From Methylophilus medardicus (GTDB lineage: Bacteria; Pseudomonadota; Gammaproteobacteria; Burkholderiales; Methylophilaceae), in assembly GCF_006363955.1 (NCBI RefSeq), contig NZ_CP040948.1:2232001-2296000 (forward strand): a stretch of DNA of 64,000 bases, given 5' to 3'. How positions within the stretch are numbered: position 1 is the first letter of the stretch; each line of letters begins with the position of its first letter. A program made the translations under genes and the position numbers. This document shows positions 42,654-61,652 of this stretch, in pieces. The notes under the pieces are model-generated. The model was not told where the DNA came from and searched no databases. It saw nothing but the letters and a program-made list of their open reading frames with translations.

Positions 42654-44219
42654 CTAGGCAGCGGCTTCTTTGTTACTAAGACCAAAATCTTCAGGGAAAT
42701 GATTCAAAGCACTTAATACTGGGTAAGGCGTCATGCCGCCCAGTGCGCACAATGAGCCATTGAGCATGGTGTCGGACAAGTCCCGCAGCAAATGTACATT
42801 TTTTGCATGGTTATTGCCTGCGACAATCTTGTCCATCACCTCGACCCCACGCGTCGAACCAATCCGGCACGGGGTACATTTGCCGCAACTCTCTTCTGCA
42901 CAAAATTCAAAGGCATAACGCGCCATTTTGGCCATGTCGACACTGTCATCAAACGCGACAATGCCACCATGGCCCAGCACTGCCCATATCTTGGCAAAAG
43001 CTTCATAATCCAGCGGCGTATCAAATTGGCTCTCAGGCAGGTAAGCCCCTAAAGGACCGCCTACCTGCACTGCGCGAATCGGACGACCGCTGGCAGAGCC
43101 TCCGCCAAAGTCGTATAACAGCTCACGCAAGGTCGCGCCAAAGGCCAGTTCGACCAGACCCGTTTGTTTTAAATTGCCAGCCAGTTGAATCGGCAAAGTG
43201 CCACGTGAGCGGCCCATGCCATAATCGGCATAGAACTGCGCGCCTTTATCCAAAATAATTGGCACGGTGGCCAGTGAGATCACATTGTTGACGATGGTTG
43301 GTTTACCAAACAAACCTTCAATCGCTGGCAGGGGGGGTTTAAAACGCACCAAGCCACGTTTGCCTTCAAGACTTTCTAATAACGAGGTTTCTTCACCACA
43401 GACGTAGGCGCCAGCCGCGCGCCTAACTTCGAGATGAAACGTATGGCCGGAACCTAGAATGTTTTCACCGAGATAGCCAGCTAAATTCGCTTTTCGGATT
43501 GCTTCATTGAGGGTTTTCTGTGCATGCGGATACTCGCTGCGCAAATAAATATAGCCCTGTGTTGCGCCAACTGCGATCGCCGCAATCGTCATGCCCTCAA
43601 TCAACACGAAGGGATCGTCTTCCATGATCATTCGGTCTGAATAAGTGCCTGAATCGCCTTCATCGGCGTTACAAACCACATACTTTTGTTCGGCGGGCGC
43701 ATTGAGGACGGTGTTCCATTTGATGCCGGTGGGGAATGCCGCGCCACCACGGCCACGCAAGCCTGAGTCAGTGACGACTTTAACGATGTCGGCGCCTGAT
43801 AAGGCAAGCGCTTTGCTTAGCCCCTGATAACCATCATGTGCAAGATAATCTTCGAGCGAGCGCGGGTCAGTGATGCCGACACGGGCAAACGTTAAACGCT
43901 GCTGCTTTTTCAACCAGCTGAGCGCATCGGTAAGCCCTAGGTATAAAGGATGTTGTTGTGCTCGGTCTGACAAGGCATGAATAAAGTCAGCCTCGAATAA
44001 ACTGGCGACATCTTTTGGCTGCACTGGACCAAAAGCGACCCGACCTTGCGTGGTCTCGACCTCAATCAGTGGCTCCAACCAGAATAAGCCGCGTGAGCCA
44101 TTGCGTACCAATTCAATGTCTATCCCGCGCGCTTGGGCTTCTTGCACCACTCTTTGCGCAGTGCGCTCAGCACCCAAGGACAGCGCGGTGGAGTCGATCG
44201 GCACATACACTTTAACCAT
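42654..44219 (-). CDS. fdsB: Formate dehydrogenase beta subunit (NuoF-like)
   Basis: Flavin subunit that passes electrons from FdsA to NAD+. The 521-residue protein has an N-terminal thioredoxin-like region, then a NuoF-type domain with the FMN-binding loop [16 protein letters not shown] near 150, the NADH-binding [14 protein letters not shown] near 185 and [21 protein letters not shown] near 270. A C-terminal 4Fe-4S site is in [16 protein letters not shown] near 448. I start at MVKVYVPID (44219); this ATG lies within the last codons of fdsG, an eight-base overlap. Confidence 0.97.
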
Positions 44220-44691
44220 GACACACCTCTGCAATCAACTCAGTAACCTTCTGCGTACTCATGCGACCGTAGACTTCGTCATCAAGCATGACCGCAGGCG
44301 AACACGCACAGTTACCCAAACAATACACCGGTAACAACGTGAGATTGCCATCCGCTGTGGTTTGGTGATAATCCACCCCCAGTGTCGCTTTCAGCGCTGC
44401 CTCCAGTTTTTCTGAACCCATGGCCTGACAAGATTCGGCGCGACACACTTGCAACACATGCTTGCCAACCGGGTGGGTGCGGAAATGATGATAGAAAGTG
44501 ACTACGCCATGCACCTCGGCCACAGAAAGGGCGAGGGCTTTCGCGATCTCAGGATACACCGCTTCGGGCACATAGCCTACATCATCCTGAATGGCGTGCA
44601 GTAAGGGCAAGAGCCCACCTGGCACATGCTGATGTGCTTGAATATGCGACTGTATTTGCGCATGTTGCGCATGACTTAATGTGTTATCCAA
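44212..44691 (-). CDS. fdsG: Formate dehydrogenase gamma subunit (NuoE-like)
   Basis: A 159-residue 2Fe-2S subunit of the soluble NAD-linked formate dehydrogenase. Ligand cysteines are in [12 protein letters not shown] near 83 and [15 protein letters not shown] near 125, the thioredoxin-like ferredoxin pattern. The start codon is TTG at 44691, preceded by GAGG about six bases upstream; no in-frame ATG lies near enough to the conserved region. It is the first gene of the fds operon, divergent from moaA, with a pair of 11-bp repeats 19-40 bases before the start. Confidence 0.95.
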
Positions 44692-44709: not shown

Positions 44710-44731
44710 CTAGTTACAATTTAGTTACATT
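44710..44731 (-). promoter_or_regulatory. Tandem 11-bp repeats in the fdsG/moaA intergenic region
   Basis: On the minus strand AATGTAACTAA is followed directly by ATTGTAACTAG. The same tandem arrangement (ATTGTAACCAA, TTTGTAACCAA) is found upstream of xoxF, in the same orientation relative to the minus-strand gene. Two direct repeats one helical turn apart are typical of OmpR/PhoB-family binding sites. Confidence 0.6.
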
Positions 44732-44744
44732 CTATCACCATCAA

Positions 44745-44772
44745 ATCATATCCTCTATTTATACCTTGTGAA
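44745..44772 (-). promoter_or_regulatory. Possible fdsG promoter
   Basis: On the minus strand TTCACA (44767-44772), 16 bases, TATGAT (44745-44750). A start near 44738 would put the 11-bp repeats just downstream of it. The prediction is weaker than for xoxF because the region is short and AT-rich. Confidence 0.4.
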
Positions 44773-44813: not shown

Positions 44814-45833
44814 ATGACAGCAATGCAAACCATGCGCTCCGTACCTTCACAGCTTATCGACCAGTTTGGCCGGCGGGTGGACTACATCCGGCTATCGATT
44901 ACCGATCGCTGCGATTTCCGTTGCCAGTACTGTATGGCAGAGGACATGACCTTTTTACCGCGTGAGGCCGTTTTGTCACTCGAAGAATGCGCGCGTCTGG
45001 TTAAATTGTTTGTCCGCATGGGGGTCACGAAAGTTCGCATCACCGGCGGTGAACCTTTGGTGCGTAAAAATGCCATGTGGTTATTTGAAGAAATCGGTCA
45101 CCTCCCCGGTCTAGACTCGTGTGTACTTACCACCAACGGTAGCCAACTAGACAAATATGCCGTAGCACTGAAGGCGGCGGGCGTTAAACGGATCAACATT
45201 TCCATCGACAGCTTGCAAGCAGACCGCTTTAAAACCATCACCCGTGTTGGCGAGTTGTCAAAAGTCCTCAGCGGACTGGACGCAGCGCGCGCCGCGGGCT
45301 TCGATAATCTGAAAATCAACACCGTACTGATGCGTGGGATCAATGATGATGAGGCGGAAGATTTAGTCAATTTTGCGCTGCAAAAACAGGTCGACATTAG
45401 TTTTATCGAAGAAATGCCGCTGGGTGAAGTCAATCACCTGCGTGAAGACAGTTGCGTCAGCAATACAGAGACGCTGGCCTTATTAAAAAGTAAGTTCTCA
45501 CTCACTGCCAGCACCCACCATACTGGCGGCCCCGCCCGTTATTGGCAGGTAAACGGTCACCTGACAAAAATCGGCTTTATTTCGCCGCACAGCCACAATT
45601 TTTGCGAAAGTTGCAATCGCGTTCGTATCACCTGCCAAGGCGAGTTGTTTCTCTGCTTAGGGCAAGATCATCAGGTGAACTTGATGCCATTATTGCGTGA
45701 GCATCCAGACGATGATCAGCCGCTGGTAGATGCGATTTTGCATGGCATGCGCATCAAACCCAAAGGACACGACTTTGATTTGCGACGCACAGCACCCGCT
45801 GTCGTGCGCTTCATGTCGCACACGGGTGGCTAA
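44814..45833 (+). CDS. moaA: GTP 3',8-cyclase MoaA
   Basis: Radical SAM enzyme that starts molybdenum cofactor synthesis from GTP. The 339-residue protein has the N-terminal cluster motif CDFRCQYC near 33, RITGGEPLVRKN near 82, and the C-terminal cluster cysteines in FCESCNRVRITCQGELFLCLG near 265. The protein ends in GG (MSHTGG), a pair needed for activity in this family. It is divergent from fdsG and its stop overlaps the mobA start (TAATG). Confidence 0.96.
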   Translation: MTAMQTMRSVPSQLIDQFGRRVDYIRLSITDRCDFRCQYCMAEDMTFLPREAVLSLEECARLVKLFVRMGVTKVRITGGEPLVRKNAMWLFEEIGHLPGLDSCVLTTNGSQLDKYAVALKAAGVKRINISIDSLQADRFKTITRVGELSKVLSGLDAARAAGFDNLKINTVLMRGINDDEAEDLVNFALQKQVDISFIEEMPLGEVNHLREDSCVSNTETLALLKSKFSLTASTHHTGGPARYWQVNGHLTKIGFISPHSHNFCESCNRVRITCQGELFLCLGQDHQVNLMPLLREHPDDDQPLVDAILHGMRIKPKGHDFDLRRTAPAVVRFMSHTGG

Positions 45834-57112: not shown

Positions 57113-58978
57113 TTACAGTGAGAAAACGTTCAGTGCACCGCCGCCAGGAGCAGCGTTGTACTTGGTCAACTCTTTGTAACCACCAGCAGCACCCAGTGCG
57201 TCTGTGTCGTTGGTCATACCCAAGTTCATCGCAACACCAGCCCAACCGCCGATACCGGACAGTACGCCAACGTATTGTTTACCCTTGTTGCCGTATGTGA
57301 ATGCATTACCAATCACGCCGGAACCAACTTGGAATTTCCACAGTTCTTTACCGCTTTGTGCATCAACAGCTTTGAACCAACGATCCAAAGTACCGTAGAA
57401 CACGATGTTAGAAGCTGTAGTCAAAGCACCGCCCCAAGCAGAGAACTTCTCTTTGTTGTACCAAACTTTTTTGTTGGTCATTGGGTCGTAAGCACCGAAA
57501 CCGCCCATCACGCCGTCTGGACCAGCAAACATGGTCAATGTAGCACCAACCCATGGTTGACCGGCAACGTATTTGGACTCAACTGGCTCGTATGTCATAC
57601 ATACGTGGTTCAATGGTGTGTACATCAAACCAGTTTTTGGAGAGTAAGCAGCAGGCTGTTGGTCTTTAGTACCTAAAGCAGCTGGGCAAACACCCTTAGC
57701 GTTGTAGTCTTGGTGAGTAGAAGCAGATGCCAATTTATCAGGTACACCTGTTTTCAGGTCAACACCAGTTGCCCAGTTAACGAATGGATGCACTTTTTCA
57801 GCAGCAACCAATGTACCGTTACCAGCTTGCCATGTGTAGATGAAGCCGTTACGGTCATGGTGCCATGCGTATGTTTTGCCACCTTTGTCGAACAGGATTA
57901 CTTCGTTAATACCGTCGTAGTCCCACTCATCGTGTGGAGTCATTTGCATGCCCCATTTAGCCACGCCAGTGTCCAAATCACGAGCAAAAATTGTCATAGA
58001 CCATTTGTTGTCGCCTGGACGTACATCTGGGTTCCATACGGATGGGTTACCAGTACCGTAGTAAACCAAGTTTGTACGTGCATCATATGGCCACCAGCCC
58101 CATACGGAACCGCCACCATGTTGCCAGCCGTCTTTAACAGCTTGTGGTTTCAACCATGTACGTGTACCCAGTTCTTTTTCGCCGCCTTTGATTTGATCAG
58201 CAGCAACAGCTTTGAAAGAACCACCTTGTTTGTTACCACCGTTTACGTCTTGGTAAACTGACAGTGCGCTGTAGGATGGGTTTTCTTTGTTGAAGTCAGC
58301 ACCGATCAATACTTCGCTGTCTGGACCTGTAGAGAAAGCTTTCCATGCCAGTGAGCCGTCTTTCAGGTTGTATGCTGCGATAAAGCAACGTACACCGAAT
58401 TCAGCACCTGAACAACCTGTCAGAACTTTGTCTTTGATTACGTGTGGAGCATTGGTGTTAGTAGCACCGACTTTTGGATCAGTGTTTTTAACATCCCAAA
58501 CTTTAGCACCAGTTTTCGCATCTAAAGCAACCAACATACCGTCGTTTTGTTGCAGATAGATTTTACCGTCGCCGTAGCCCAGACCACGTGAAACGTTGTC
58601 ACAGCACAAAACTGCTTGAACGCTTGGGTCTTGTTTAGGGAAATAAGACCAAACGATTTTTTGATTGTCGTTCAGATCCAAAGCGTATACGTTGTTTGGG
58701 AAAGCTGTGTGAACGTACATCATGTTGCCCACAACAACTGGTGAACCTTCGTGACCACGGTTTACACCGGTTGCGAATGTCCATGCTGCTTTCAGGTTTT
58801 TAACGTTACCCTTGTTGATTTGTGCCAAGGCGCTGTAACCGTTGTTGTTATGCTGACCACGTGGATGTGCCCAGTTGTTTGCATCTTTCAACGCGGCTTC
58901 TTGGTCAGCTGCTGCGAAAGCAACCAGTGGCAATGCTGCTACCAGACCGAGGGCCAGTTTGATTTTGTTAACTTGCAT
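57113..58978 (-). CDS. xoxF: Lanthanide-dependent methanol dehydrogenase XoxF
   Basis: PQQ-containing periplasmic enzyme oxidising methanol. The 621-residue protein has a signal peptide (LGLVAALPLVAFAA) and an eight-bladed propeller with WAHPRGQHNNNGYSAL near 36. Key residues are the adjacent cysteines 125-126 that form the disulfide by PQQ, the metal ligands Glu193 (GAEFGVR) and Asn311 (GTGNPS), and the catalytic Asp353 in HDEWDYDG. Asp355, two residues on, marks the lanthanide-binding XoxF type; calcium MxaF enzymes have alanine there. No mxaI gene is nearby, as expected. I start at MQVNKIKL (58978), with GGAG about eight bases upstream; the frame extends four codons to a TTG. It has its own promoter and terminator. 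An insertion around residues 235-270 is longer than in MxaF. The XoxF subclade (4 or 5) was not determined. Confidence 0.96.
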   Translation of the reverse strand: MQVNKIKLALGLVAALPLVAFAAADQEAALKDANNWAHPRGQHNNNGYSALAQINKGNVKNLKAAWTFATGVNRGHEGSPVVVGNMMYVHTAFPNNVYALDLNDNQKIVWSYFPKQDPSVQAVLCCDNVSRGLGYGDGKIYLQQNDGMLVALDAKTGAKVWDVKNTDPKVGATNTNAPHVIKDKVLTGCSGAEFGVRCFIAAYNLKDGSLAWKAFSTGPDSEVLIGADFNKENPSYSALSVYQDVNGGNKQGGSFKAVAADQIKGGEKELGTRTWLKPQAVKDGWQHGGGSVWGWWPYDARTNLVYYGTGNPSVWNPDVRPGDNKWSMTIFARDLDTGVAKWGMQMTPHDEWDYDGINEVILFDKGGKTYAWHHDRNGFIYTWQAGNGTLVAAEKVHPFVNWATGVDLKTGVPDKLASASTHQDYNAKGVCPAALGTKDQQPAAYSPKTGLMYTPLNHVCMTYEPVESKYVAGQPWVGATLTMFAGPDGVMGGFGAYDPMTNKKVWYNKEKFSAWGGALTTASNIVFYGTLDRWFKAVDAQSGKELWKFQVGSGVIGNAFTYGNKGKQYVGVLSGIGGWAGVAMNLGMTNDTDALGAAGGYKELTKYNAAPGGGALNVFSL

Positions 58979-59142
58979 ATTGATCTCCAAAGTTAGTACT
59001 AAGGGTTTAATATAAGTACACGTTAAATTTTGCCAACACTAGGATTAGCAAACCAAATTTCCCGCATACTTTTCACTCTAGAGACAAGGGAGAAATTCCT
59101 GAAACATCTGAGAATTTATCACTTGCCGTCTGTGAGGATTGC
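58979..59142 (-). promoter_or_regulatory. Long 5' leader of xoxF
   Basis: About 158 bases lie between the predicted transcription start (near 59136) and the ATG. A hairpin can form from TTTGCTAA and TTGGCAAA on the minus strand (plus-strand arms 59045-59052 and 59028-59035) with one G-T pair. The leader has no gene. Its length would allow post-transcriptional control. Confidence 0.45.
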
Positions 59143-59171
59143 AATATAGAACAATTTGTTTTCAATTGCAA
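59143..59171 (-). promoter_or_regulatory. Probable xoxF promoter
   Basis: On the minus strand TTGCAA (59166-59171), exactly 17 bases, then TATATT (59143-59148). The 11-bp repeats begin four bases upstream of the -35 box, a position used by activators that touch RNA polymerase. Confidence 0.65.
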
Positions 59172-59175
59172 CAGT

Positions 59176-59197
59176 TTGGTTACAAATTGGTTACAAT
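59176..59197 (-). promoter_or_regulatory. Tandem 11-bp repeats upstream of the xoxF promoter
   Basis: On the minus strand ATTGTAACCAA and TTTGTAACCAA follow each other directly and differ by one base. They lie at about -40 to -61 from the predicted start. A matching pair is in the fdsG/moaA gap at 44710-44731. The half-site resembles the TGTAAC core of OmpR-type sites. Confidence 0.65.
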
Positions 59198-61551: not shown

Positions 61552-61652
61552 AACGCCAGTATTGCCGCCGCTTGCGCTAAATCAATGCAAGCAATCATTG
61601 CGGAATTGTAATATATGTTACAAAATTGTAACTATGTTTGGAATTCTGCATC

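Follow-up and report, generated by a model that had tools for sequence, protein, structure and literature searches.

A conserved tandem repeat at the xoxF promoter of Methylophilus medardicus is a predicted OmpR box

Among the enzymes of methanol use, XoxF-type methanol dehydrogenases hold a key position, and the locus described here raises the question of which regulator controls the main xoxF copy of Methylophilaceae. The gene resides on the minus strand (57113..58978) of a 64,000-nt stretch of the Methylophilus medardicus genome, which was analyzed as a whole and is called the window. It encodes a PQQ-dependent methanol dehydrogenase of 621 aa that scored above the cut-off of TIGR03075 and whose nearest named relatives belong to Methylophilus strains (97% identity at best). 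Papers on the family use the clade name XoxF4 for the Methylophilaceae enzyme, which is putative for this XoxF. A first-pass annotation of the window had reported perfect tandem pairs with an 11-bp period upstream of xoxF and of the formate dehydrogenase gene fdsG. Both repeats exist on the minus strand at the annotated places and share the exact core TGTAAC-N5-TGTAAC, but their copies are only near-perfect: ATTGTAACCAA/TTTGTAACCAA at 59197-59176 differ at one of 11 positions, AATGTAACTAA/ATTGTAACTAG at 44731-44710 at two.

The candidate operator of xoxF (59176..59197, minus strand) contains two TTGTAAC half-sites, 59196-59190 and 59185-59179, spaced 11 bp apart. Adjacent to it we predict a promoter (59143..59171, minus strand) composed of the -35 box TTGCAA (59171-59166), a 17-nt spacer and the -10 box TATATT (59148-59143); three promoter-like sites were detected in the xoxF region, while 1.7 were expected. 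The end of the downstream TTGTAA half-site is 8 nt ahead of the -35 box, and a third, weaker copy, CTGTTGC (59174-59168), extends into this box.

To describe the conservation of the repeat, the best xoxF copy of each genome was taken and 40 promoters were anchored on their -35 and -10 boxes only (40 of 53 genomes with a match; L121 and L123, with three and four mismatches, were left out). The anchor itself demanded TTGC and a -10-like hexamer, and the promoter position was kept in the 40. In 31 of these 40 promoters, which, like the related sequences of all our conservation counts, are not independent events, TTGTAA half-sites matching in at least 10 of 12 letters had the offsets -25 and -14 relative to the -35 box; any other offset was found in at most four. 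The information content reached 1.20 bits per position in the half-sites and 1.04 between them, compared to 0.22 further upstream and 0.68 in the -35/-10 spacer. The footprint at xoxF is strong. Since it is conserved, the site is far more than a chance match, and the annotated OmpR-type tandem site against the -35 box is borne out for much of the Methylophilaceae.

The repeat adjoins the -35 box, is A+T-rich and has similar counterparts upstream of rRNA promoters, as would an element read by RNA polymerase alone, e.g., an UP element. However, the G of the two half-sites was kept in 33/40 and 36/40 promoters, respectively, the 11-bp spacing was fixed, and the box also occurs at ompR, cox and fds without adjoining a -35 box in this way. 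We consider such an element very improbable here.

Nine of the 40 promoters lacked the box at its place. L109 showed another arrangement, L200 and L201 contained partial or shifted repeats, and in the remaining six (L120, L134, L195, L198, L202 and L204) the box was absent. An OmpR orthologue was nevertheless present in eight of these nine genomes, which counts against OmpR as the binder; the exception was G021 (L202), whose best protein showed 38% identity. The extended pattern TTGTAA-N5-TTGTAA-N8-TTGCAA with up to two mismatches occurred in 105/121 family genomes, including matches away from xoxF such as that of G021, and the reversed control in 26/121. Among 80 named xoxF loci, 76 were usable; 56 of them reached 10 of 12 letters, a generous figure because the anchor was chosen to favour repeats, and several misses were second xoxF copies. 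Strain HTCC2181, strain KB13, Methylobacillus and Methylotenera were among the positive ones.

Seven extra xoxF copies were inspected as well. L191 and L192 have a similar arrangement, and the other two copies of this genome (L185, L186) are devoid of it. According to the excerpt of PMC5723320, the regulation of xoxF copies is not uniform even within a single genome. Second copies (L185, L188, L189, L190) have a common inverted arrangement upstream, around TTAAGCGNNTGTAAC or TTAAGCAGATGTAAC, which is possibly another OmpR-like site.

The leader of xoxF revealed further elements. Just ahead of the start codon (58979-59010) there is a nearly invariant block, AACCCTTAGTA-N-AACTTTGGAGAT, which is longer than a ribosome-binding site and could hide this site by pairing CC-N2-AGT with ACT-N2-GG. 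Within an alignment of 16 leaders (from L258-L333) no covariation was detected, and the pairing gained no support from it because the five predicted pairs never vary. Many leaders also contain, right after the -10 box, a short inverted repeat (CTCACATG...AATGTGA or GCAC...GTGC) whose letters vary between genera. By eye, though not in the alignment, it resembles a 5′-terminal hairpin of the mRNA (examples are L265, L327 and L318).

How frequent the motif is turned out to be of little help. In the 2.6-Mb genome, TGTAAC-N5-TGTAAC occurs exactly four times, every time upstream of a gene or operon: at ompR (L001), at a small ORF leading the coxB operon (L002), which had no match in NCBIfam, at fdsG (L003) and at xoxF (L004). 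The reversed pattern was found twice. With up to one mismatch there were 11 matches and 26 of the reversed control, two of the latter being one place read on both strands. Since the 11 matches are fewer than those of the control, the motif is not enriched by number. These counts apply to the 11-bp period; at least one bare-core pair with a 10-bp period exists, near phoB (L165). Within the window, eight matches with up to two mismatches were detected (3.5 expected), and 6 of 100 shuffles reached eight. The places are a different matter, as 9/11 motif matches but only 6/26 of the control were situated outside ORFs of at least 150 aa.

A similar picture emerged from 60 Methylophilaceae genomes, 19 of which contained together 30 exact matches, compared to 22 of the reversed pattern. 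Judged by neighbouring genes, three belong to xoxF, eight to cox, two to ompR and two to fds; seven have a tyrS-like gene or rRNA-type promoters as neighbours, and the other eight, L026 among them, lie elsewhere. The number of matches was therefore rejected as evidence, the reversed pattern being commoner at one mismatch and nearly as common when exact. Counts below (11 vs 26) or barely above (30 vs 22) the control also speak against OmpR. It is place and conservation, not counts, that set the motif apart from chance. CoxB, FdsG, XoxF, OmpR and PhoB (in L165) exceeded their NCBIfam cut-offs, whereas the names coxA, envZ, moaA, fabA, moxR, dnaJ, htpG, tyrS, tal, hps and mxaF are putative assignments from sequence.

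We then scored the best tandem site of each upstream region, allowing two of 14 mismatches. Such a site was present in 43/46 family upstreams of ompR (46 of 59 genomes with a match), 27/40 of xoxF, 14/28 of cox (28 of 30 loci; 48 genomes with a match) and 8/30 of fdsG (30 of 50 genomes with a match), as opposed to 2/134 unrelated upstreams, each taken at least 450 bp away from the target loci. With three mismatches the control rose to 18/134; since all 18 matches came from xoxF loci, this threshold is not clean there. A first control set of 207 upstreams (61/207 at two mismatches) was discarded, as it held regions shared with the targets, e.g., that of the gene divergent from xoxF.

Scanning periods from 7 to 15 bp at two mismatches, we obtained 37 sites at 10 bp and seven at 11 for ompR, and nine at 11, seven at 10 and four at 7 for cox. 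The xoxF upstreams gave 26 at 11 and five at 10; a further 19 had a period of 14 bp, which arises when a half-site is paired with the -35 TTGCAA. Tandem direct half-sites spaced by roughly one turn of the helix (10-11 bp), as they characterize an OmpR box, are thus present, and the period differs between ompR (mostly 10 bp) and xoxF (11 bp), another point against OmpR. The box at ompR is not confined to the family, although it is weaker outside. Across the order, close OmpR proteins were found in 30/60 genomes, and 28 loci from other families provided 23 readable upstreams; 15/23 upstreams contained the box at up to three and 7/23 at up to two mismatches, while mononucleotide shuffles gave 4.1% and 0.3%, respectively. 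In the upstreams of ompR that were read (e.g., L045, L057 and L073), a further conserved element, TGTAAATCGAATGTTTC or a similar sequence, starts approximately 32 bp ahead of the box. This element also forms an 11-bp pair, and two OmpR dimers may sit at this promoter.

Which protein recognizes the repeat? A tandem pair whose core TGTAAC at xoxF, fds, cox and ompR fits the published TGTWAC(AW) makes the annotated OmpR-type operator a sound prediction, and we regard it as quite probable that the repeat is an OmpR box and EnvZ/OmpR of the Methylophilaceae its binder at xoxF. The OmpR of the genome (P0001) matched the OmpR equivalog NF007005 with 381 bits (cut-off 331), and its DNA-binding domain aligned closely with that of E. 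coli OmpR. After ompR, a large ORF with kinase-like text was seen by eye in G000, G034 and G013. Moreover, 5 of 11 genomes scanned (four of genus g16 and G013) encode exactly two proteins with an OmpR-type DNA-binding domain, which we take to be OmpR and PhoB. The four g16 genomes contained 11 matches to TGTAAM-N4,5-TGTAAC and five to the reversed pattern; four of the 11 lie at xoxF, four at cox, one before 16S rRNA (L255), one at its counterpart L256 and one in an ORF (L251).

In these five genomes the phosphate regulator PhoB is the only other regulator of the OmpR fold, and it had to be considered as the binder. Pho boxes are 7-bp direct repeats with an 11-bp period, a geometry (7 + 4 + 7 bp) like that of our repeat; the two differ in the half-site, TGTCAT vs TGTAAC. 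The boxes of phoB itself are TGTCAT-type in this genome (G000), which carries TTGTCATTAAAATGTCAT, and in G013, which carries ATGTCATTAAAATGTCATATTAATGTCAT; on this ground PhoB was held unlikely. In addition, the half-sites of xoxF, cox and ompR are TGTAAC rather than TGTCA-type, and the TGTAAC box sits at ompR in 43/46 upstreams, mostly with the 10-bp period. Two observations leave PhoB some weight: this genome has a TGTAAC-N4-TGTAAC pair close to phoB (L165), and in two g16 phoB regions no clear box of the TGTCAT or the TGTAAC type was seen. Altogether we give it a small chance only. With phoB on one side and a divergent transporter-like ORF on the other, the pair in L165 (CTGTAACAAGATGTAAC, around 3444, 10-bp period) is some 45 bp away from the Pho box. 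Through it OmpR might act on phoB or on the divergent gene, or PhoB might bind both kinds of boxes.

A DNA-binding protein outside the OmpR family is a further candidate, as in other bacteria different two-component systems, namely MxaY (PMC5018670) and PedS2/PedR2 (PMC6115532), govern xoxF or related genes, according to the excerpts of these papers. MxbDM, MxaY/MxaB (MxaB: PMC5874918) and PedS2/PedR2, as far as their descriptions go, are mostly two-component regulators that switch methanol or alcohol dehydrogenase genes and in this respect resemble the system predicted here; they differ in having been described in other bacteria. We set them beside OmpR by description only. Against a foreign regulator stand the box at ompR beyond the family and its match to published OmpR motifs, and we judge it to be about as improbable as PhoB.

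For OmpR itself, two known cases are close. The Salmonella motif TGTWACAW, mutation of which abolishes in vitro binding at tviA, has the core TGTAAC/TGTTAC and occurs in more than one copy upstream of seven Salmonella genes, as stated in the excerpt of PMC3586657; by the paper's own account, the classic ompC and ompF sites lack its motifs. The targets there are other ones, and this excerpt makes no mention of a strict 10/11-bp pair. In Acidithiobacillus caldus, gel shift and calorimetry were used to assay OmpR binding to the tetH promoter region; the predicted boxes GTAACAAGTTGTAACAGGTG and TTTAGCTTATGTAACAAGTT in the excerpt of PMC9861516 overlap and can be read as TGTAAC-N4-TGTAAC. The target is likewise an energy-metabolism gene, but the substrate and the class of bacteria are different. 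Hence the box is ordinary in kind, resembling published OmpR motifs, and the word "undescribed" in the first-pass annotation applies to its targets, a set that is new as far as we found. The assignment of OmpR to the predicted box is well supported but unproven.

The site at fdsG was less convincing. The gene (44212..44691, minus strand, TTG start) encodes a formate dehydrogenase gamma subunit scoring above the cut-off of NF004638. We predict its promoter at 44745..44772 (minus strand; TTCACA at 44772-44767, 16 nt, TATGAT at 44750-44745) in a region with two promoter-like sites (0.7 expected); a similar promoter element was also recognized by eye in L136, L138-L141 and L149. The candidate operator (44710..44731, minus strand) is located downstream of the predicted -10 box, and its core (44729-44713) would span about +10 to +26 if transcription starts approximately 7 nt past the -10 box. 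It also lies about 85 bp upstream of the start of a divergent moaA-like gene (44814..45833, plus strand).

Three of five genomes of the genus possess the fdsG site, exactly in G000 and G057 and with one change in G019; G036 and G048 do not. Together with the 8/30 upstreams mentioned above, in which the positions vary, this might mean that the match at fdsG arose by chance or is limited to the lineage, and in either case is unlinked to the xoxF site, which would be compatible with OmpR as the binder at xoxF. Yet it is one of only four exact sites of the genome, is retained in G057 and nearly so in G019, and G009, G029 and G042 show a TTTACA-N5-GTAACA pair in roughly the corresponding position. 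We lean against this reading but hold it for a possibility of some weight. The annotation had proposed a shared operator: the exact core and the fixed place in 31/40 xoxF promoters agree with it, while the predicted link to fds is weak.

The box at cox was kept more regularly, i.e. in 5/5 genomes of the genus sampled, three g22 genomes viewed, G007, G042 and the four g16 genomes. By eye, it seems to follow the likely -10 box in genera g1, g22 and g8, to cover the likely spacer and -10 box in g16 and to be positioned upstream of the likely -35 box in g7. Sites are also shared upstream of rRNA operons, where Rfam detected 16S in L011, L033, L255 and L030 but not inside the short pieces L243 and L031; one of the one-mismatch sites of this genome belongs to an rRNA operon, too. 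L029, L034, L039 and L256 are putative members of this group. In L011, L243, L031, L033, L034 and L029 (three genera) the TGTAAC-type pair starts 32-33 nt before an rRNA-type -35 box TTGACC, and in L255 (g16) a reversed pair is placed further upstream of an rRNA-type promoter. Other shared sites are flanked by a moxR-like and a fabA-like gene (L008, L242) or have a dnaJ-like gene next to them (L005, L244, L249). Within the window, TGTTACAAAATTGTAAC at 61616-61632 is one mismatch away from the box, partly palindromic and just before an ORF starting near 61638.

The suggestion that the repeats are operators of a methanol-oxidation regulon is not well supported by this list of sites, and a regulon devoted to methanol alone is not borne out by it, the other exact sites of this genome belonging to cox and ompR. 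Among the 11 matches of the genome (up to one mismatch) there is none beside an ORF that we read as mxaF, pqq or fae; the best site in the 1000 nt upstream of mxaF has two of 14 mismatches and is about 650 nt before the frame. In favour of a methanol regulon, an exact match of G052 (L026) resides between tal-like and hps-like ORFs, hps being a C1 gene. Judged from the sites, the set does not look like a dedicated methanol regulon.

From the arrangement of the boxes we infer the following mode of action. EnvZ/OmpR would bind a pair of TTGTAAC half-sites separated by one turn of the helix (10 or 11 bp). Phosphorylated OmpR would most likely switch xoxF on because its box directly adjoins the -35 box, where activators that touch the polymerase usually sit. 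At fdsG and, in several genera, at cox, OmpR would more likely be a repressor, since the box is on or just after the likely core promoter; at cox the sign may differ between genera because the position of the box relative to the promoter varies. OmpR would also control its own gene via the same box.

In the open literature, which leaves most subscription journals outside and was covered by titles and starts of abstracts, there was no link between OmpR and xoxF in Methylophilaceae among the matches listed, no named xoxF regulator was found for this family, and Methylophilaceae together with EnvZ gave no match. OmpR is mentioned in the excerpts of xoxF papers as the sensor-kinase annotation in a suppressor mutant and in references to a synthetic methanol-sensing chimera, and in that of PMC5095479 only beside phoRB. 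The excerpt of PMC6794327 states that two-component systems are greatly reduced in planktonic strains.

As a tentative and rather doubtful extension, EnvZ/OmpR may have been rewired in Methylophilaceae, down to the streamlined 1.3-Mb forms, so that it commands C1 energy metabolism and growth as a master switch. It would turn xoxF on from its site at the -35 box, block cox and fds in several genera from sites on or after the -10 box and act through additional sites ahead of rRNA operons. The ompR box would be ancestral, and xoxF would have been recruited to it within the family.

The footprint gives a testable answer to the question of what controls the main xoxF copy, namely OmpR. OmpR is the textbook regulator of osmolarity; if the answer is true, it would have been put to quite a different use, in much-reduced bacteria. 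The data suggest that OmpR helps to run methanol oxidation and respiration in Methylophilaceae.
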